NCBI RefSeq assembly: GCF_003053565.1 | Contig: NZ_QAXS01000009.1 | Location: 1 to 64,000, forward strand | DNA length: 64,000 nucleotides | From: Halanaerobium saccharolyticum | GTDB lineage: Bacteria; Bacillota; Halanaerobiia; Halanaerobiales; Halanaerobiaceae | Reading direction: 5' to 3' | In this document: piece after piece, positions 5,041 to 53,334 of the stretch | Numbering within the stretch: position 1 is the stretch's first letter | How the letters are laid out: each line of letters starts with the position of its first letter | Translations under genes and position numbers: made by a program | Notes under the pieces: generated by a model | Seen by the model: only the letters and a program-made list of their open reading frames with translations | Databases searched by the model: none | What the model was told of the DNA's origin: nothing

Positions 5041-7680
5041 TTAATTGTTCAGGTGAGCAATTAATTGCTGAGCACTGCTCAATTCAAAACGGCCCGAATC
5101 GAGCTTCCAGTACTGAGCAGAATCTGTTAGCCTGCTGATGAATGAAATTAAATGTGGATGACAGCTTAAAATAAATATCTGATGGCTCCCGGCAAGTTCA
5201 GCAAGCAGCTCGGCTGTGTTATAAAGGTGGCTTCGATCAAAATTAACCAGCGAATCATCCAGAACAAGCGGCAGTGGAGGATTAATCTCTTTTATTCTGC
5301 TTAATCTAACTGCCAGAAACAGCTGTTCTAAGCTCCCCTGACTCAGCTCCTTAGTCTGTTTTTCTTCTTTATTTTTTGCTGTAATTATTCTAAAATCTCT
5401 CTGTTCAAGATCAGAAGCTGTTTTGAGCTGGCTGTAATGACCGCTGCTGATTCTCTTCATGATTTTGGAAGCCGGTTTTAGTAATTCCTCTTCTGCTTTT
5501 TCAATCATCTTTGCGCGCAGTTTTTTTAAAATAAAACTAACACTTTGATTCAGAGCGTAGTCCTGAGCCTTTTTTTCCAGTTTTGTCTGTGCCAGATCAA
5601 TTTTCTGCTGAGCTTTTTCGATTCTAGTAGAAGTAGATAATTCATTAATTCTATTTTTTAAAGTTGTGATATTTTCTTCCAGCTTTCCCTTTTCAGCTTT
5701 TAAATTACTCAACTCTAGAGAAAGCGACTCTTTTTCTGCTTCTACTGCTGCAGCTGTGGGAAATTGCTGATAAAAATTAATAAATATCTGATAATAACTC
5801 TGTTCTTGATTAATTTCAGTGAGTGCATTTTTTATTTTCTCAGAAGCTTTAAGAGTGTGTTTAAGTTGATTTTTTTTAGTAAGATATTGATCAGTCAGTG
5901 CCTTTAAATCTTTAATTAATTCAAAATCTCCAAAGAGATCCTGCTGATTTTTGATTAAATCAACTTCTGCGGCAGCACTAAACTCCAAATCACAGTTTTG
6001 TGCTGTATTTTTAATTATTGTTTTTAATTCCTGCAGAGTTTTAAGCAGCTCTGCTTTATTTGAGAAGTGAACTTTTTCCTCATTTTTAAGTTCCTGATAC
6101 CTTCTCTGCTTATCTCTAATTTCTCTGTAGTAGGAAGCCAAAAATGACCGATATTCATCTTCCTTTATTCCTAATATTTGAGCATAACTGCCCAATTCTT
6201 TTTCAAGCTCCTCTAAAAGCTCTGTTTTTTTAGCTAAATTCTGCTCCAGTTGAGCAAGTTCACGCTGCTTAAGCTCTTTTTCTTTTTTTAATTTATCAGC
6301 TTTTTCTTTTTCTAACTGGGATGTCTTATAACTGGAGCTGTAGTAGAAAAATGCAGCCAGAGCTATAATCAGCGATAAATATCGCAGCTGATTGAGATTA
6401 ATTAAAAATGAAGAGCCTAAAGTTAAAATTGAAACAGCTAAAATTAAATAGCTCTGTTTCAAAACAGTTCCAGGTTTTCTAAATTCAACTGCTTCCAGCT
6501 CCTGGCTGAGATCCCGCTCATCATTTTTAAGCCTCTTTATTTGTGATTCGATTTTTTCAAGATCTGAATTTAAATTTTCATAATCTTTGAGTTTAAGATT
6601 TAATTTCTGCTCTTTTATCAGGTCAAGTTCAATATTATTGAGCTGCTGCAGACCTCCCTCCCAGCTGGAATTTAAACTTTCCAGTTCCAAAAGCAGCTGC
6701 TGTCTTACACCAGCTAATTTTTCTTTTTGTAATTGATAATTTTTAATTCTCTCTTTTAATGCTTCTTCTTTCTGCTTAAATTTGTTAATTAATTTATTTT
6801 GTTCAAAAAAACTTATCAGTTCATTTAATTTTTTCTGCTGATTAAGATTTTCCGTCTTAGTTTCTGCTTGATCTGGCTCCACAGATCTGCTGGAAGAAAT
6901 ACCAGAGACGGCTCTTTTCAACTTCTGCTCAACCGCTTCTATTTCCTGAAGTTCAGAATAGTTATTTTTTAAGAGGTCAATTAAGATGTATTCATTTTCA
7001 ACAGACTCAATTTTTTCGTTAAGCTTCTGCAGGCTGCTCTGTTTTTTTAATAACTCTTCTCTCTTATTAGAAAACTCTTTAACCTCTAAAAGTGCCTCGT
7101 CCCGGTCATCTTCAGCCTCTCTTATCTGATTATAGTAAGGTTTAAAATCTGCCACAGAGGGGTCACCGCGCTTACCACCCGTATCTACAGCTCTATTATA
7201 ATATTTATCTGCAAGTTCCGGCACTCTGACCAGCTCTGAAAAACCAGCCCCAAGCAGTATTGAATAAAGCCGTTTTTCTTTCTTTTTACCGCCGGCAATT
7301 TTAGATAAATGCTGCAGTTCATCCAGACTGATACTAAATAAGTGCTGATAAGTTAACTGGTCCAGCTGATTAAAAAGTTCAACTGCAGAATGTTCTCTCT
7401 GTTTTTCATCTAAGACCCGGGGCTTAGAAAAACCTTCCAAAGAAAGATTATAACTGGTATTTTCTTTTTCCAGCTCAGCTTCTATATAATAATTGCTGGC
7501 AGCAGGTGGAATAGAGTTATCCTGCGGCAGGCCGTAGGGTAAGTAGCGGAGAAGCTTTAAAAAACTGCTTTTGCCGGCTCTATTTTTACCGCCAATAACC
7601 ACCAGCTTATTTGAAATATCATCTAAATTCTGATTGTTGAAAATTCCAAAATCACGAATGTATATTTTCTTATAATGCAT
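5041..7680 (-). CDS. SbcC/Rad50-like ATPase with membrane hairpin (YhaN type)
   Basis: SMC-like DNA repair ATPase, predicted partner of the nuclease encoded just upstream. Walker A is GGKNRAGKSS near residue 30. A signature-like ELSQGSLEQLFLAVRL and Walker B PLPLVLDDSLVNFD lie near the C-terminus. Between them are long coiled coils rich in E, K, L and Q. The coil is broken at about residues 405-455 by two hydrophobic segments (SYLILAVSILTLGSSFLI and LSLIIALAAFFYY), as in Bacillus YhaN, so the protein is probably tethered to the membrane. No CxxC zinc hook of Rad50 is present. The start abuts the stop of the nuclease gene (7680/7681), indicating translational coupling. A second soluble paralogue is at 44000-46429. 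Confidence 0.85.
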   Translation of the reverse strand: MHYKKIYIRDFGIFNNQNLDDISNKLVVIGGKNRAGKSSFLKLLRYLPYGLPQDNSIPPAASNYYIEAELEKENTSYNLSLEGFSKPRVLDEKQREHSAVELFNQLDQLTYQHLFSISLDELQHLSKIAGGKKKEKRLYSILLGAGFSELVRVPELADKYYNRAVDTGGKRGDPSVADFKPYYNQIREAEDDRDEALLEVKEFSNKREELLKKQSSLQKLNEKIESVENEYILIDLLKNNYSELQEIEAVEQKLKRAVSGISSSRSVEPDQAETKTENLNQQKKLNELISFFEQNKLINKFKQKEEALKERIKNYQLQKEKLAGVRQQLLLELESLNSSWEGGLQQLNNIELDLIKEQKLNLKLKDYENLNSDLEKIESQIKRLKNDERDLSQELEAVEFRKPGTVLKQSYLILAVSILTLGSSFLINLNQLRYLSLIIALAAFFYYSSSYKTSQLEKEKADKLKKEKELKQRELAQLEQNLAKKTELLEELEKELGSYAQILGIKEDEYRSFLASYYREIRDKQRRYQELKNEEKVHFSNKAELLKTLQELKTIIKNTAQNCDLEFSAAAEVDLIKNQQDLFGDFELIKDLKALTDQYLTKKNQLKHTLKASEKIKNALTEINQEQSYYQIFINFYQQFPTAAAVEAEKESLSLELSNLKAEKGKLEENITTLKNRINELSTSTRIEKAQQKIDLAQTKLEKKAQDYALNQSVSFILKKLRAKMIEKAEEELLKPASKIMKRISSGHYSQLKTASDLEQRDFRIITAKNKEEKQTKELSQGSLEQLFLAVRLSRIKEINPPLPLVLDDSLVNFDRSHLYNTAELLAELAGSHQIFILSCHPHLISFISRLTDSAQYWKLDSGRFELSSAQQLIAHLNN

Positions 7681-26757: not shown

Positions 26758-28041
26758 TTAAATATTACTTTCAACTCTAATCACACTTTTAACCTCTATC
26801 ACATCATCAAGTTCTTTAATTTGAGCCAGAGATTTATTTAAATCTTTTTCCCTAACTGAGTGAGTGATAAATACCAGTGGTACAACCGGATTGTCCTTCT
26901 GCTTCTGCAGTACTGAAGCCAGACTGACATTATTATCCCCAAATATTTTGGCGATATGGGCCATCACGCCCGGCTCATCCTTAACTTCAAAGCGCAGATA
27001 AAAGCTGTTCTCAATTTCATCAATTTTAATTACATTACTTTCTAAAAAGGAGTCCATCCGCTGTACTTCCCGCTGATTGTGGTTAATATCTTTAGCCACC
27101 TGGATGATATCTGCAGTTACAGCACTACCAGTAGGCATCTGTCCTGCTCCCCGGGCTGTAGACATCACCTGACCAACAGCATCACCATGCAGGTAAACAC
27201 AGTTATAGGTGCCATTAATCATAGCCAGCGGGTGATCTTCAGGCACAAAGGCTGGATGAACTCTGACATCAAGTCCTTCAGGTGAGTTTTTGGCTATTGC
27301 TAAAAGCTTAATTACATAACCCATTTCGTGGGCCAGCTCAATATCTTCAATAGCAACATCTTTAATTCCTTCTACATAAACCTCTCTAACATCAACAAAG
27401 CGCTCAAAAGCCAGTGAGGAAAGAATAGTGATTTTATAGGCTGCATCATCACCTTCAATATCTGAAGAAGGATCTGCCTCAGCAAAGCCCAGCTCCTGAG
27501 CATTTTTTAGAGATTCAGCAAAATCTTTTTTCTCCTTGCTCATATCAGTTAAAATATAATTGGTGGTTCCATTTAAAATACCATATATTTTTTCAATTCT
27601 ATTGGCGGCCAGAGAATTCTGCAGCGGTCTGATTATCGGCAGACCACCGGCAACACTTCCCTCATAACAGACCTGAACATCATTTTCATCTGCTTTTCTA
27701 AAGATCCGCTTTCCATATTTTGCAATCACCAGTTTATTGGCAGTAACAATACTCTTCCCATTTTCAATAGCCCTAATTATGTAGTCATAGGCCGGCTGCT
27801 CTCCCCCAATTAATTCGACAACAATATCTATATCCGGATTATTAATGATATCTTCAACCTGATCAGTTAATAATTCCCGGTTAATTTCAATATCTCTTTC
27901 CTTTTCCAGGCTGTTGACCAGGATTTTTTCTATTCTAACCTCAGTTCCAACCTTATTTTTAATATTTTCAGCATTCTTCTCCAAAATCTTAACTACTCCA
28001 CTACCAACTGTACCAAGTCCTAAAATTCCTATCTTAAGCAA
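26758..28041 (-). CDS. hom: Homoserine dehydrogenase
   Basis: Reduces aspartate semialdehyde to homoserine with NAD(P)H, the branch point to threonine, methionine and isoleucine. The nucleotide fold starts with IGILGLGTVGSGVVKIL. The catalytic region contains SVAGGLPIIRPL, GILNGTTNYIL and GFAEADPSSDIEGDDAAYK. A C-terminal ACT domain (about residues 350-427, FEVKDEPGVMAHIAKIFGDNNVSL) suggests feedback control by threonine. Length is normal. The start is a TTG eight bases after GGAGG. It is a single-gene unit; thrB, thrC and aspartokinase are not adjacent. Confidence 0.96.
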   Translation of the reverse strand: MLKIGILGLGTVGSGVVKILEKNAENIKNKVGTEVRIEKILVNSLEKERDIEINRELLTDQVEDIINNPDIDIVVELIGGEQPAYDYIIRAIENGKSIVTANKLVIAKYGKRIFRKADENDVQVCYEGSVAGGLPIIRPLQNSLAANRIEKIYGILNGTTNYILTDMSKEKKDFAESLKNAQELGFAEADPSSDIEGDDAAYKITILSSLAFERFVDVREVYVEGIKDVAIEDIELAHEMGYVIKLLAIAKNSPEGLDVRVHPAFVPEDHPLAMINGTYNCVYLHGDAVGQVMSTARGAGQMPTGSAVTADIIQVAKDINHNQREVQRMDSFLESNVIKIDEIENSFYLRFEVKDEPGVMAHIAKIFGDNNVSLASVLQKQKDNPVVPLVFITHSVREKDLNKSLAQIKELDDVIEVKSVIRVESNI

Positions 28042-28097
28042 AATTATAACCTCCTGTAATCTTATATTGCTTGCTTCTAACTTCTCTATTATTAAAT

Positions 28098-28126
28098 ATT
28101 ATATCAAGGAGTTATTAACTTGTCGA
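28098..28126 (-). promoter_or_regulatory. SigA-type promoter of hom
   Basis: TCGACA (28121-28126), 17-base spacer, TATAAT (28098-28103) on the minus strand, about 55 bases before the hom start codon. I see no T-box or other riboswitch in the short leader. Confidence 0.6.
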
Positions 28127-28180
28127 CTTTCTGAGAAAATTTATGCTTTAAATTTAAGAATTATTAATAATTTCAACAAA

Positions 28181-29440
28181 TCATCTTTCCTTCATGGCTG
28201 CAGTTGGCTCTAATTTCGCTGCCCTGCGAGCCGGTAAAATACAGCTTAAGGTCACTACAACTGCCCCAATTAAAAAGGCAAAAACCGAGTTGAAGATCGA
28301 AGACTGAGTATAGATAATTGAACTGATCATGATCTCAGAATCAAAACCAGATAAAGCAGCTGTAAAATCAATTCCATTCACAGCAAAATAATTATTGATA
28401 ATTGAACCAATAATTGAGCCAAAAAAACTGCCGATAATTCCCATTACCGCCCCTTCTAAAATAAAAAGCTTTAAAATACCTCCGCTTTTCATTCCCAGAG
28501 CAGACATCATGCCAATTTCTCTGGTTCTTTCTTTAATAATCATAATCATTGTATTAATCACAACAATTGAAGATAAGAGAACAATAAATATATAGACCTG
28601 ATTATATATTAATTGTGCAATTTCCATGTAGGGCAGAAGATCACTTGTTTCCTGATAACTGAGCGCCAGATATTTATTTCCACCCGCTTGAGAATTAAGA
28701 TATTCTTTGACCCGTGGCAGAACCTCAGCTGTCATTTCTCTCTCTGGAGTAACTAATAAAATTTCACTCTGCTGATCTTCCATATACAGTAAAGGCTGCA
28801 CGGCTGCCAGCGGTATAAAAAATGCCTGTTCATTTAAAGCTTTTAAACTGCTGTTGATTCGTCCAACCACTGTTACCGTAAAACCGGTTACAGAATTAAA
28901 AGATGTATTAGCTACTATAGTTAAACTATCTCCCACCTTTTTATCCAGCTTTCTTAAAAGTTCAGTTCCCATCACCACTTCTAATTTGCCGTTTTCGATC
29001 ATTCTGCCTTCGACCAGCTGATCTTCTATATTTGTAAACTCTATTTCATTTTCTTTTTCAACTCCCCAGCCCATCATATTAATCAGTTCATTACCGGTGC
29101 TGACAACTGCACCAAACTTTAAACGCGAAATTAAAAGCTCTACTCCGTCCAGATTCTGCAGTTCAGATTTCATCTGAGCTAAAGATTTGTCCTCAAAACC
29201 ATCAACATTATAATTTAAAGGCATTACTCTCTCCTGATCGTAGTATTCCCGGTCAATTATCTTTATGTGGCCTGAATTATACTGAATGTGATCGGCAAAA
29301 GATAAATTAATCAATCCTGTTATATAACCGCGGGCAAAAACAACTACTGCTACAGCAAAGGCAACAGCAAGAATAGATACAAAAGTTCTTAATTTGTGTC
29401 TAAATAAGTTTTTAAGGGCTAAATTAAGATAAAAAAGCAT
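28181..29440 (-). CDS. ABC transporter permease, FtsX/MacB (LolC/E) type
   Basis: Membrane subunit of 419 aa with the FtsX/MacB layout: one N-terminal helix (LRTFVSILAVAFAVAVVVFARG), a large extracytoplasmic domain (about residues 45-265), and three C-terminal helices beginning IVVINTMIMIIKERTREIGMMSALGMKSGGIL, the conserved coupling segment. Such permeases act as mechanotransmitters for lipoprotein release, export or peptide efflux. It is downstream of a sister permease (11-base gap), so the pair forms a heterodimer. No ATP-binding subunit is encoded next to them. Confidence 0.88.
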   Translation of the reverse strand: MLFYLNLALKNLFRHKLRTFVSILAVAFAVAVVVFARGYITGLINLSFADHIQYNSGHIKIIDREYYDQERVMPLNYNVDGFEDKSLAQMKSELQNLDGVELLISRLKFGAVVSTGNELINMMGWGVEKENEIEFTNIEDQLVEGRMIENGKLEVVMGTELLRKLDKKVGDSLTIVANTSFNSVTGFTVTVVGRINSSLKALNEQAFFIPLAAVQPLLYMEDQQSEILLVTPEREMTAEVLPRVKEYLNSQAGGNKYLALSYQETSDLLPYMEIAQLIYNQVYIFIVLLSSIVVINTMIMIIKERTREIGMMSALGMKSGGILKLFILEGAVMGIIGSFFGSIIGSIINNYFAVNGIDFTAALSGFDSEIMISSIIYTQSSIFNSVFAFLIGAVVVTLSCILPARRAAKLEPTAAMKER

Positions 29441-42740: not shown

Positions 42741-42769
42741 TTGCGTTTTTAAGGGTAGAGGTCTATAAT
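42741..42769 (+). promoter_or_regulatory. SigA-type promoter of the structured RNA
   Basis: TTGCGT (42741-42746), 17-base spacer, TATAAT (42764-42769). The predicted start (about 42776) coincides with the first base of the RNA's terminal helix. Confidence 0.6.
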
Positions 42770-42775
42770 GTAGTT

Positions 42776-43098
42776 ACAAGGTTCTGAGGAAGTCCTAAGA
42801 TTGAATGTTTACAAGTAGTATTTTGAAATTCTTATTCAAGTAAGATTATTTGAGATTTAGAAGTGAGATTGTTGATTGAAATTGATCAAGGTTAATTAAG
42901 ATCAATTCCGAAGAAGTTACTATTAATGGTAAGCAAAAAGAAATTATTAAGGGATAGCCTTCTTTAATAATAGTCTTTGAGCAAATCAAAGATAGTAATG
43001 GAGGACTAAATCGAAAATAAAACGAAAGAATAAGAAAAGTAAAAAAACAAACTGTAAACAGGAAATCGAAGAAGATTCGTCAGAACCTTGATTTTTTT
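42776..43098 (+). ncRNA. Candidate structured non-coding RNA, ~320 nt
   Basis: In a 617-base stretch without a protein gene, the sequence folds as follows. Closing helix CAAGGTTCTGA (42777-42787) with TCAGAACCTTG (43080-43090), 11 base pairs. Inner helix AGTCCT (42791-42796) with AGGACT (43002-43007). Hairpin AATTGATC/GATCAATT (42880-42887, 42900-42907). A three-way junction closed by TTACTAT/ATAGTAA (42917-42923, 42992-42998) holds hairpins ATTATTAA/TTAATAAT (42943-42950, 42964-42971) and TCTTTGA/TCAAAGA (42974-42980, 42986-42992). An A-rich single strand covers about 43009-43050, and seven T residues follow the closing helix. A promoter sits in exactly the right place. I cannot match it to tmRNA, RNase P, SRP or 6S RNA. 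Confidence 0.6.
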
Positions 43099-43129
43099 AT
43101 GCCTATTTTTATTGAATTCCTGTTTACAG
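43052..43129 (-). terminator. Long-loop terminator of the PAS-GGDEF gene, antisense to the RNA 3' end
   Basis: Perfect 13-base inverted repeat CTGTAAACAGGAA (43052-43064) / TTCCTGTTTACAG (43117-43129). On the minus strand it is followed by TTTGTTTTTTT. The 52-base loop contains the 3' strand of the structured RNA's closing helix on the other strand. Confidence 0.5.
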
Positions 43130-43138
43130 CAGTTTTAA

Positions 43139-43975
43139 TTAACGCCTTCCCTTATTTTTATACATATTTTTATCAGCCTGATTGTAGATATCAGTTAATT
43201 TTTTGCCGCTTCTGCTTGCTGTCGCACAGCCCAGTGAAATTTTAAAATCAACTGGAAAATTATTTTCAGAGTTTTGAGCTTCAAATTTTTTGATTATCCG
43301 CTCACAGATCTGAATACAATCTTTTTTATCTGTCTTTGAAAGCAGCACTGCATATTCATCCCCACCTATTCGGGCTACAACATCTTCCGCCCGCAGCAGC
43401 TCTTTTAAAATATCGGCTGCTTTGCGCAGATATTCATCACCCAGCAGATGACCATAATTATCATTAACAGTTTTTAAATTATCCAGGTCTCCAATTATAA
43501 TACTGATTGGATAACGCCGAGAATCATCCAGGCGCTTCATCTCTTCTTCAAAATAGCGGCGGTTATATAAATCTGTCAGTTCATCATGATAGGATAAATA
43601 TTTTATTTCTTTTTCCCGCTCTATTCTTCTGCTGACATCAACCAGGTTTACAAGCAGATAATCCTCACCAATTGGATTGACTCTAAATTCTACAAATTTA
43701 TTTTTACCCGACTTGGTTTTTATCTCAGAAACCCTGTTGTAGTGTTCCCTCTCTGCCAGTTTTTCTTTAAATGCTGAATGAATTTTTTCTCTTTGAACAG
43801 GATCAGGAAAAGCAAATTTAAACCACTGCTCAAGATTTTTAATTTCACTGATTGAGTAACCGGTTATTTTAGTAGTCAAATCATTGATATAGATAAAATC
43901 TCTATTTTCATCCAAAATTGCTATACCCATTGTTAAATTATTGAGTACTGTTTCGATACTTAAATCTTTTAACAT
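43139..43975 (-). CDS. PAS-GGDEF diguanylate cyclase
   Basis: 278-aa cytoplasmic signalling enzyme making c-di-GMP. An N-terminal PAS domain (about residues 5-115: MGIAILDENRDFIYINDLTTKITGYSISEI) is followed by a GGDEF domain (about 125-278: SYHDELTDLYNRRYFEEE, DNYGHLLGDEYL, RIGGDEYAVLL). The signature is GGDEY, a tolerated variant. The inhibitory RxxD site (RAED) lies five residues before it, so product feedback is likely. The ATG at 43975 follows AGGTG. It is the last gene of a likely operon with the second SbcD/SbcC-like pair (24-base gap). Confidence 0.9.
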   Translation of the reverse strand: MLKDLSIETVLNNLTMGIAILDENRDFIYINDLTTKITGYSISEIKNLEQWFKFAFPDPVQREKIHSAFKEKLAEREHYNRVSEIKTKSGKNKFVEFRVNPIGEDYLLVNLVDVSRRIEREKEIKYLSYHDELTDLYNRRYFEEEMKRLDDSRRYPISIIIGDLDNLKTVNDNYGHLLGDEYLRKAADILKELLRAEDVVARIGGDEYAVLLSKTDKKDCIQICERIIKKFEAQNSENNFPVDFKISLGCATASRSGKKLTDIYNQADKNMYKNKGRR

Positions 43976-43999
43976 CAAATCACCTTTTATATTTAATTG

Positions 44000-51008: not shown

Positions 51009-51545
51009 CTAATGTAAATTTCCTTCACGGTGGACTACATCATAAGCAAATAAGGCGTAGCCGATTTCTGCAGTTGTAAATTCTCCATCTGCAGCCATCT
51101 CCCGCACAATTTTTATTATTTTAAGGTAGTCGTCTGGCTTAAAACTTTCTTTTTCCTTTTCAAAATAACCTAGATTATAGAGGCTGGCCCAGACCCTGGT
51201 GTCAATTACACAGTGCTTTTCAGGGTTTAGAGAAGTTAAAATTGCTGAAGCGGTTGGAGTACCAATTCCCATTAAACTTGTATAAAGGGCCAGACGGCAG
51301 AAATCATCATAGAGCTGATAGGCTGCCTCAGTAACTTTTTCCACCCGATTGGCAGGATTCTTTTTTACATGGTAGGAACTGCGGGTGGAATTCAAATGAG
51401 CCAGCTGGTATAATTCCTCTTTAGTTAAGTATTCTTTTTGATGATATTTCTCCCCAATCTGCATTAACTCTTCTGGATAAAGTCCTGTTGTCTCTTCATA
51501 TTCTTTTAAATATTTTTCAAAATCAATTAGCTTAATTTTAATCAC
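51009..51545 (-). CDS. HhH-GPD-like (DNA glycosylase fold) hypothetical protein
   Basis: 178-aa protein. The segment LMGIGTPTASAILTSLNPEKHCVIDTRVWASLYNLGYF resembles the helix-hairpin-helix plus following block of OGG/Nth-type DNA glycosylases (G-I/V-G-x-x-T-A, then P...-V-I-D-T-R-V). The catalytic aspartate position of the family (D in VIDTRV) is kept; no Fe-S cysteines are present. The N-terminal half is helical. It starts with a GTG lacking a strong ribosome binding site. A base-excision or DNA-end sensing role is possible in this repair-gene neighbourhood, but unproven. Confidence 0.55.
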   Translation of the reverse strand: MIKIKLIDFEKYLKEYEETTGLYPEELMQIGEKYHQKEYLTKEELYQLAHLNSTRSSYHVKKNPANRVEKVTEAAYQLYDDFCRLALYTSLMGIGTPTASAILTSLNPEKHCVIDTRVWASLYNLGYFEKEKESFKPDDYLKIIKIVREMAADGEFTTAEIGYALFAYDVVHREGNLH

Positions 51546-51574
51546 CCCAAATTATATCTGCTGCGCTTTTTAAT

Positions 51575-51895
51575 CTATTCATATTTTCTGGCCACTGCTA
51601 CAATAATCACTCCGTAAATAATACCAGCAAAAAATGAAATCCGATCAGTCATACCTGTGGAAAGATAGAAAGCAAGAGAAACCATTAAGCCCAGATTTCC
51701 ACCTTTAATTAGCCCTTCAAGTCCGGGTTTCATTTTAGTTAGACCAATTAAAATACCCATAATTAACCTGTTATACCAGAGGGCAAATAGATAAAGCTCA
51801 TTGCCGCTGAAGCCCATTCTAATTCCTCCACCGATAATGCAGATCACTCCCAGCAGTGCACCAGAAACAATTGATACTTTTAATTTTTTATTCAT
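51575..51895 (-). CDS. Small hypothetical membrane protein, 106 aa
   Basis: Three hydrophobic segments (VSIVSGALLGVICIIGGGI, LYLFALWYNRLIMGILIGL, and FFAGIIYGVIIVAVARKY), plus LGLMVSLAFYLSTG, suggest four short helices. The glycine-rich pattern recalls small Firmicutes/Halanaerobiales proteins of unknown role. AGGAGG precedes the ATG. The HhH-like gene follows 29 bases downstream. No function can be assigned. Confidence 0.6.
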   Translation of the reverse strand: MNKKLKVSIVSGALLGVICIIGGGIRMGFSGNELYLFALWYNRLIMGILIGLTKMKPGLEGLIKGGNLGLMVSLAFYLSTGMTDRISFFAGIIYGVIIVAVARKYE

Positions 51896-52120
51896 CTTTA
51901 TGATCCTCCTCTTTCTTCTCTTTGCTGATTTAAAATAAAGTTAATTTAAACTTACTATTACTATATTTGATTTTAAGAATAAATATTCCTGCTTAAAAAG
52001 ACGGTCTTCTATTTTAATTTTAAAGGAAAGCTGAAAACTGAAAATGCTTTAAATCAGGAATTAAATCTGATAAACTTGATTAAAGAACTAATAATTATCA
52101 CAATTTAAGGAGCTGATATT

Positions 52121-52495
52121 ATGAGTCTAATTGAAAAGACTATGAAGATGAAAAATTGGGCAGTGGTTGGTGCCACCACAAAGAAAAATAGATACGGCCA
52201 CAAAATTGTTAAAAAACTGAATAAAAATGATTATAATGTCTTCCCAGTTAACCCTAAGTTTGAAGAAGTTGACGGTCTAAAATGTTATCCTGACCTGAGC
52301 TCGATAGAAACTCAAATTGATGTTGTTGATATGGTTGTCAATCCAAAACTTGGGATTAAAGTTATCAAAGAAATTAATAAACTGGGAATTAAATATGTCT
52401 GGCTGCAGCCGGGAACCAGGAGCCAGGAAATTAGAGATTATGCAGCCGAAAATGAGATAGAAATAGTTGAGGACTGCATATATGCCCGCTTATAA
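52121..52495 (+). CDS. CoA-binding domain protein (YccU type)
   Basis: 124-aa single Rossmann-like CoA-binding domain: NWAVVGATTKKNRYGHKIVKKLNKNDYNVFPVNPKFEEVDGLKCYPDL, then VDMVVNPKLGIKVIKEINKLGIKYVWLQPGTRSQEI and a C-terminal VEDCIYARL, where the family has the V-x-x-x-C pattern. It probably binds CoA thioesters or senses CoA status in the cytoplasm. AAGGAGC precedes the ATG. Its stop codon overlaps that of a degraded SDR gene on the other strand. Confidence 0.92.
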   Translation: MSLIEKTMKMKNWAVVGATTKKNRYGHKIVKKLNKNDYNVFPVNPKFEEVDGLKCYPDLSSIETQIDVVDMVVNPKLGIKVIKEINKLGIKYVWLQPGTRSQEIRDYAAENEIEIVEDCIYARL

Positions 52496-52588
52496 GTTTG
52501 AGCTGCCTGCTCCTCCGTCAACAACTATAGAACTTCCATTAATATAATCAGACTTTGGTGAGGATAAAAAGGCTATTAAACTGGAGAG
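52490..52588 (-). pseudogene. 3' remnant of an SDR oxidoreductase gene
   Basis: On the minus strand, one frame reads LSSLIAFLSSPKSDYINGSS and continues IVVDGG to a stop codon. This is the classic C-terminus of short-chain dehydrogenases (A-x-x-x-x-F-L-x-S-x-x-x-x-Y-I-x-G-x-x-x-x-V-D-G-G). Only 32 codons remain, with a TAG directly upstream in frame. The rest of the gene has been replaced by the QueG-like gene, whose stop codon lies inside the remnant in another frame. Confidence 0.8.
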
Positions 52589-53334
52589 CTAAAAGAACAG
52601 GGTAAAGCAACCGAACATTTACCGCAGACATCAGTCAGAACTGACTCAGGATGAATTTCATCATTTTCTGAAAGCAGTTCATAACATAAATGGCGGTCAA
52701 ATGAATCAGCCTGCAGTGAGCCATTGACACAGCGGTCAACACATTGACTGCAGTTAAAACCAGCCTTATTGAGGCATCTTTCCTCTTCTCTCCGCTCTGA
52801 GGCTGCAAGTTTCAAATCAGTAACTATAGTTCCTATTCGACCTGCACAGCCCTTTTCGGTGATCAACATGTTATTCAGTCCAAAAGTTCCAAGTCCTGCT
52901 ACATAAGCGGCATGCCGGTGAGACCAGTCACTGATTAACCTTTCCTTATCAAAATTATTGGTGGCTGCGATGAGACTTGCCTGATAGCCCTTTTCTGACA
53001 GCTCGTCTTTTAAATGCTGATTTAATTCTGCGATCAGCTGATTTGTTTCTATATATGCTTTTGCCCACTGATGTGAGCTGTATTTTCCTTCAATATTTGA
53101 GTTAGCAATTTCTTCAGCGAAAGGAATAAAATACGCGATCACTGTTCTGGCATCAGTCATTATATCTTCAGGCATTAAGTGATCCTCTGAAACAACCTTT
53201 TTTAGTTGATTAAACATTGGATCAGCCGCAGCTGCATATTTAATTACCGGCTCTTTCCAACTGCTCTCTATATCATCTTTCTGCTGATAGTTAGCTATAA
53301 AGTTTTGAATTGAATTTTCAATTTCCTGCTTCAA
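52576..53334 (-). CDS. Double [4Fe-4S] protein, epoxyqueuosine-reductase-like
   Basis: 252-aa soluble protein with a QueG-like layout: an N-terminal DUF1730-like domain (ADPMFNQLKKVV, DARTVIAYFIPF, SHRHAAYVAGLGTFGLNNMLITEKGCAGRIGTIVTDL) and a C-terminal ferredoxin-like part with cysteines in CLNKAGFNCSQCVDRCVNGSL and DVCGKCSVALPCSF. It lacks the HEAT-like C-terminus of true QueG, so it belongs to the shorter sister family of unassigned Fe-S reductases. The best start is a TTG at 53334, six bases after GGAAGG. The divergent gene at 53511 also encodes a two-cluster Fe-S protein. Confidence 0.8.
   Translation of the reverse strand: MKQEIENSIQNFIANYQQKDDIESSWKEPVIKYAAAADPMFNQLKKVVSEDHLMPEDIMTDARTVIAYFIPFAEEIANSNIEGKYSSHQWAKAYIETNQLIAELNQHLKDELSEKGYQASLIAATNNFDKERLISDWSHRHAAYVAGLGTFGLNNMLITEKGCAGRIGTIVTDLKLAASERREEERCLNKAGFNCSQCVDRCVNGSLQADSFDRHLCYELLSENDEIHPESVLTDVCGKCSVALPCSFSSPV

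Follow-up and report, generated by a model that had tools for sequence, protein, structure and literature searches.

Does a gene-free stretch of the Halanaerobium saccharolyticum genome encode a structured RNA of its own and, if so, what does that RNA work with? The initial annotation of this locus proposed a candidate undescribed RNA of about 320 nt, bounded by a long-range helix, preceded by a promoter and lacking the signature sequences of 6S, tmRNA and RNase P. We examined the locus within a window of 64,000 nucleotides (NCBI RefSeq assembly GCF_003053565.1, contig NZ_QAXS01000009.1, positions 1 to 64,000 of the forward strand) and then followed the element across the phylum Bacillota. That proposal is supported. 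What the single sequence could not reveal is that the RNA belongs to a phylum-wide, sometimes multi-copy family tied to a pair of genes, which we call kin and hpt2.

An independently promoted, rod-like element

The element lies on the plus strand at 42777–43098 and measures about 315–322 nt including the T tail. It is preceded by a sigma-A type promoter at 42741–42769, composed of TTGCGT (42741–42746), a 17-nt spacer, and TATAAT (42764–42769). The -35 box is weak in this copy, with three of six positions, and is missed by a generic promoter scan, but homologs carry TTGACT/TTGACA-N17-TATAAT at the same place. No ORF of 60 aa or more covers the element on either strand, and an apparent short reading frame in the A-rich 3' strand is broken in other copies by 1- and 2-nt indels. 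The predicted fold has a minimum free energy of -89.8 kcal/mol against -52.2 +/- 4.4 kcal/mol for dinucleotide shuffles (z = -8.5). Because the element is an almost continuous imperfect palindrome, its reverse complement folds almost as well, and the strand is fixed not by folding but by the promoter, the T-run and their conservation.

The rod is closed by P1, an 11-bp helix formed by CAAGGUUCUGA (42777–42787) and UCAGAACCUUG (43080–43090), the latter followed by seven T residues at 43092–43098. A G-G mismatch and the three-base P1b helix come next, with the mismatch G and GAA at 42788–42791 facing UUC and the mismatch G at 43076–43079. P1b leads into a conserved internal loop, whose 5' strand is GUCCUAA (42792–42798; family consensus nYCCUAA or ACAAGA-like) and whose 3' strand is GAAGAAGA (43068–43075; family consensus GAURAAG); we infer that this loop is a likely recognition site. 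Beyond it, P2 pairs GAUU (42799–42802) with AAUC (43064–43067), and P3 pairs UGUUUA (42806–42811) with UAAACA (43055–43060). The distal rod and apical hairpin occupy 42916–42999, where GUUACUAUU pairs with GAUAGUAAU ahead of the GGU...AUC arm. The hairpin and three-way junction described in the initial annotation fall partly in a 40–50-nt insertion around 42862–42910 that is lineage-specific and absent from the short Halanaerobium copies, whereas the long rod is the conserved structure. A perfect inverted repeat, CTGTAAACAGG (43051–43062) and CCTGTTTACAG (43117–43129), spans the 3' end of the RNA in this genome and its near twin (genome G003), and could compete with the RNA's own 3' pairing or serve the convergent downstream gene, a GGDEF (diguanylate cyclase-like) gene at 43139–43978 on the minus strand that is not part of the RNA. 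GGDEF or HD-GYP genes lie within about 0.25–0.6 kb of the RNA in three unrelated lineages (families f1, f101 and f22; loci L025, L029, L030, L031, L142–L144 and L169–L171, besides the window), and a c-di-GMP-II riboswitch sits near it in locus L141 (501–584), but most lineages lack this neighborhood, and we rejected it as the defining partner.

A covarying RNA family absent from Rfam

Homologs occur in most but not all Halanaerobium species (named homologs are in H. saccharolyticum, H. congolense, H. kushneri and H. polyolivorans), with three copies in genomes G007 and G010. Most genomes outside this genus are unnamed in the collection used, and we refer to genomes, loci and families by handles beginning with G, L and f, respectively. 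Full-length copies have the -10 box a few bases before the first helix base and a T-run after the last. In an alignment of 15 sequences, comprising the genus plus one copy each from G013 and G014, the consensus structure has 84 pairs; 97.7% of cells pair, and 24 pairs show two-sided compensatory changes, against 8.7 +/- 2.1 in shuffles, none of 500 of which reached this value. Sliding the partner strand drops pairing to 40–51%.

A covariance model built on these sequences found divergent full-length copies in other families of the order (twice in G032, and in G018, G021, G024 and G027) and, in a sample of 398 genomes of the phylum, 345-nt copies in a distant family (f22). Reading the loci of the partner gene, together with a second model and an end-motif scan, extended the set to families f21, f26, f42, f44, f57, f63, f77, f87, f101 and f129, for a total of 15 families and lengths of about 143–414 nt. 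The constant features are a P1 ending in CC(A/G)AG or CUGAG paired with UUGG or UCAG, a mismatch (usually G-G), P1b, and an internal loop with 5' YCCUAA(G) or ACAAGA-like and 3' GAURAAG-like strands. A MAFFT-only alignment of all lineages misaligns the middle of the RNA, and cross-family covariation was therefore counted only on the closing helix: on 34 aligned ends from the 15 families, the 14 closing pairs are standard in 92.6% of cells, 11 pairs have two-sided changes, and 101 cells changed on both sides against 32.7 +/- 7.4 in shuffles. P1b covaries between families, exchanging G-C with A-U and A-U with G-C. Weak covariance-model hits in G349 (L117), G061 (L186, inside a gene), G009, G028 and G029 were rejected on inspection, and pattern hits in named genomes outside Halanaerobium lacked the RNA's other motifs.

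No Rfam 15 family matches the element, and no member examined reaches an Rfam threshold; searches at permissive E-values gave only hits that look like chance, mostly eukaryotic snoRNA or miRNA-like. The element is not 6S or RNase P, because candidates for both are found elsewhere in the same genome, on contig C5: a clear 6S RNA (RF00013) at 5939–6112 (98.7 bits) and an RNase P RNA candidate (RF00011) at 28006–28354 (58 bits, below cutoff). ARAGORN found no tmRNA in the window. Full-text searches of an open library, which did not cover most subscription journals or bioRxiv preprints, found no description of an RNA linked to these genes.

The kin-hpt2 operon

In 13 of the 15 families (f2, f6, f21, f22, f26, f42, f44, f57, f63, f77, f87, f101 and f129) the RNA lies beside the same two genes. 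The first, kin (about 310–340 aa), encodes a Cytidylate_kin2 P-loop kinase-like domain (PF13189, E down to 1e-34) followed by a C-terminal domain with sub-threshold similarity to Phage_endo_I (PF05367). A profile of 21 kin proteins matches the putative kinases 3fdi and 3hdt and the endonuclease I structures 3cae, 2pfj and 1m0d. The PD-(D/E)XK motif reads PDFYL...(I/V)ELT, with threonine in place of the usual lysine, and both enzymatic readings of kin are uncertain. The second gene, hpt2, encodes an additional protein that scores over the HPRT cutoff (TIGR01203) and is the next gene in the intact kin loci read. All 38 Halanaerobiales genomes carry an HPRT over the family cutoff; 37 of them score 217 bits or more, while G030 (62% complete) shows only its kin-linked copy, and the second HPRT (155–184 bits) occurs only beside kin. 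Its catalytic-loop Asp (EDIVDTG), which probably serves as the general base in HPRTs, is intact in f21, f42, f44, f57, f63, f77 and f129, but is Gly in f22, f26 and f101 and Arg, Asn or Lys in Halanaerobiales, so in part of the family HPRT2 is probably a binding protein rather than an enzyme. In Thermomicrobium roseum (NC_011961.1; L213:3953–4954), a kin-type endonuclease-I-like domain is fused directly to an HPRT, without the kinase domain.

The RNA adopts at least four arrangements relative to the operon: divergent upstream of kin (f22, f87), convergent at the hpt2 stop (f6, f101, f77), on the same strand after hpt2 (f2, f42), and between kin and hpt2 (f42). Two RNA copies lie beside one operon at L159, L161, L151, L155 and L158, with one copy between the two genes in L159 and L161. 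In Halanaerobium and G032, by contrast, the RNA is unlinked from the operon, which in the window's genome lies on contig C23 (kin at 51929–52903, hpt2 at 51425–51916), and G396 holds four dispersed copies. This combination argues against a cis element and for a trans-acting partner.

Co-occurrence across genomes supports the same association. Of 38 Halanaerobiales genomes, 17 have kin and all 17 have the RNA, while RNA without kin is seen only in G002, a 75%-complete genome whose RNA lies at a contig end (Fisher p = 6e-10). Both are absent from G008, G011 and G012, and the RNA is thus dispensable at the genus level. In the 398-genome sample, kin is present in 38 genomes, or about 10% of the sampled Bacillota species, and the 15 genomes with strong RNA hits (models R1 and R2) are all among them (hypergeometric p = 3e-17). 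These p values are not corrected for phylogenetic dependence, and R2 was built from kin-adjacent loci; the informative part is that about 360 kin-negative genomes gave no believable RNA. Counting loci read one by one, 29 of the 38 kin-positive genomes have the RNA; the rest were not read (G201, G417), truncated (G130), or searched near kin with these models without a hit (G243, G314, G335, G336, G358, G418), so the proteins may work without the RNA, or the RNA has diverged.

A proposed kin-HPRT2 ribonucleoprotein

We consider it likely, though without transcript, binding or phenotype data, that the element is a gene for a trans-encoded, rod-shaped noncoding RNA that serves as a subunit or dedicated regulator of a conserved accessory module containing kin and HPRT2. 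While the conservation, covariation, promoter, T-run and association with kin-hpt2 are read from the genomes, it is by inference that the proteins bind the RNA, probably through the P1/P1b helix and the adjoining purine-rich loop (YCCUAA/GAURAAG), and that the complex couples a purine-nucleotide signal, sensed by the HPRT fold, to the kinase or nuclease-like protein. The sensing step is an analogy only to PyrR, a phosphoribosyltransferase that appears to bind RNA and sense nucleotides; PyrR, however, binds mRNA leaders in cis, whereas here the RNA is a separate gene and the PRTase is HPRT-like. More tentatively, the module may represent a new class of bacterial RNP in which the RNA assembles with a kinase/T7-endonuclease-I-like fusion protein and a repurposed HPRT, so that purine or alarmone levels control an RNA-dependent kinase or nucleic-acid-processing activity.

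The closest conceptual relative is OLE RNA (ornate large extremophilic RNA, RF01071), also a large conserved ncRNA of anaerobic or extremophilic Bacillota with dedicated protein partners and an unknown biochemical role (PMC11332333, PMC9723947). OLE is ~600 nt, its family does not match here, and its partner proteins differ. Few large bacterial ncRNAs of unknown role come with named partners, and the kin-hpt2 pair gives this one a concrete protein context that links structured RNA to purine-salvage enzymes.

Alternative explanations

The main rival, which we regard as unlikely, is a type III-like (ToxIN-like) toxin-antitoxin or defense module in which the RNA neutralizes the kin nuclease/kinase or the HPRT pair and is released under stress or phage attack. 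The patchy distribution, the RNA never being clearly without the protein, the RNA copies flanking the operon, the nuclease-like fold and weak PD-(D/E)XK hits in PADLOC are compatible with this view. However, the gene neighborhoods seen are not defense islands, the RNA is a single-unit rod in variable positions rather than a tandem-repeat array preceding the toxin gene, the protein folds differ from those of ToxIN-like systems, the unlinked RNA in Halanaerobium is unlike toxin-antitoxin pairs, and the nuclease motif lacks the usual lysine. Moreover, searches of viral, phage and plasmid collections returned no true RNA copy, and no full-length kin was found in the phage or plasmid collections.

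A free-standing regulatory RNA that happens to travel with kin-hpt2, either a 6S-like RNA polymerase decoy or a CsrA/RsmA sponge, is more doubtful still. The rod shape, paired ends and own promoter recall 6S RNA, and one divergent copy gives a weak, below-cutoff RsmY hit rich in GGA. Yet size, motifs and partner genes differ from those of 6S, which the genome encodes elsewhere, no 6S or Csr family reaches threshold, the GGA count is low in the window copy, and the strict co-occurrence with kin is left unexplained.

A cis element (a terminator, attenuator or DNA hairpin of the neighboring genes) is very improbable: although in several families the T-run end overlaps or abuts the hpt2 stop codon convergently, the element has its own promoter, is found upstream, downstream, between the genes and unlinked, on either strand, and has conserved internal loops that go beyond terminator needs. 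Equally improbable is a small non-autonomous, MITE-like mobile element spread as near-palindromic DNA, since, despite three to four copies in some genomes, the gene neighborhood is shared in most Halanaerobium species, the promoter and T-run are conserved, the pairs show compensatory changes, and the RNA shows genomic dependence on kin.
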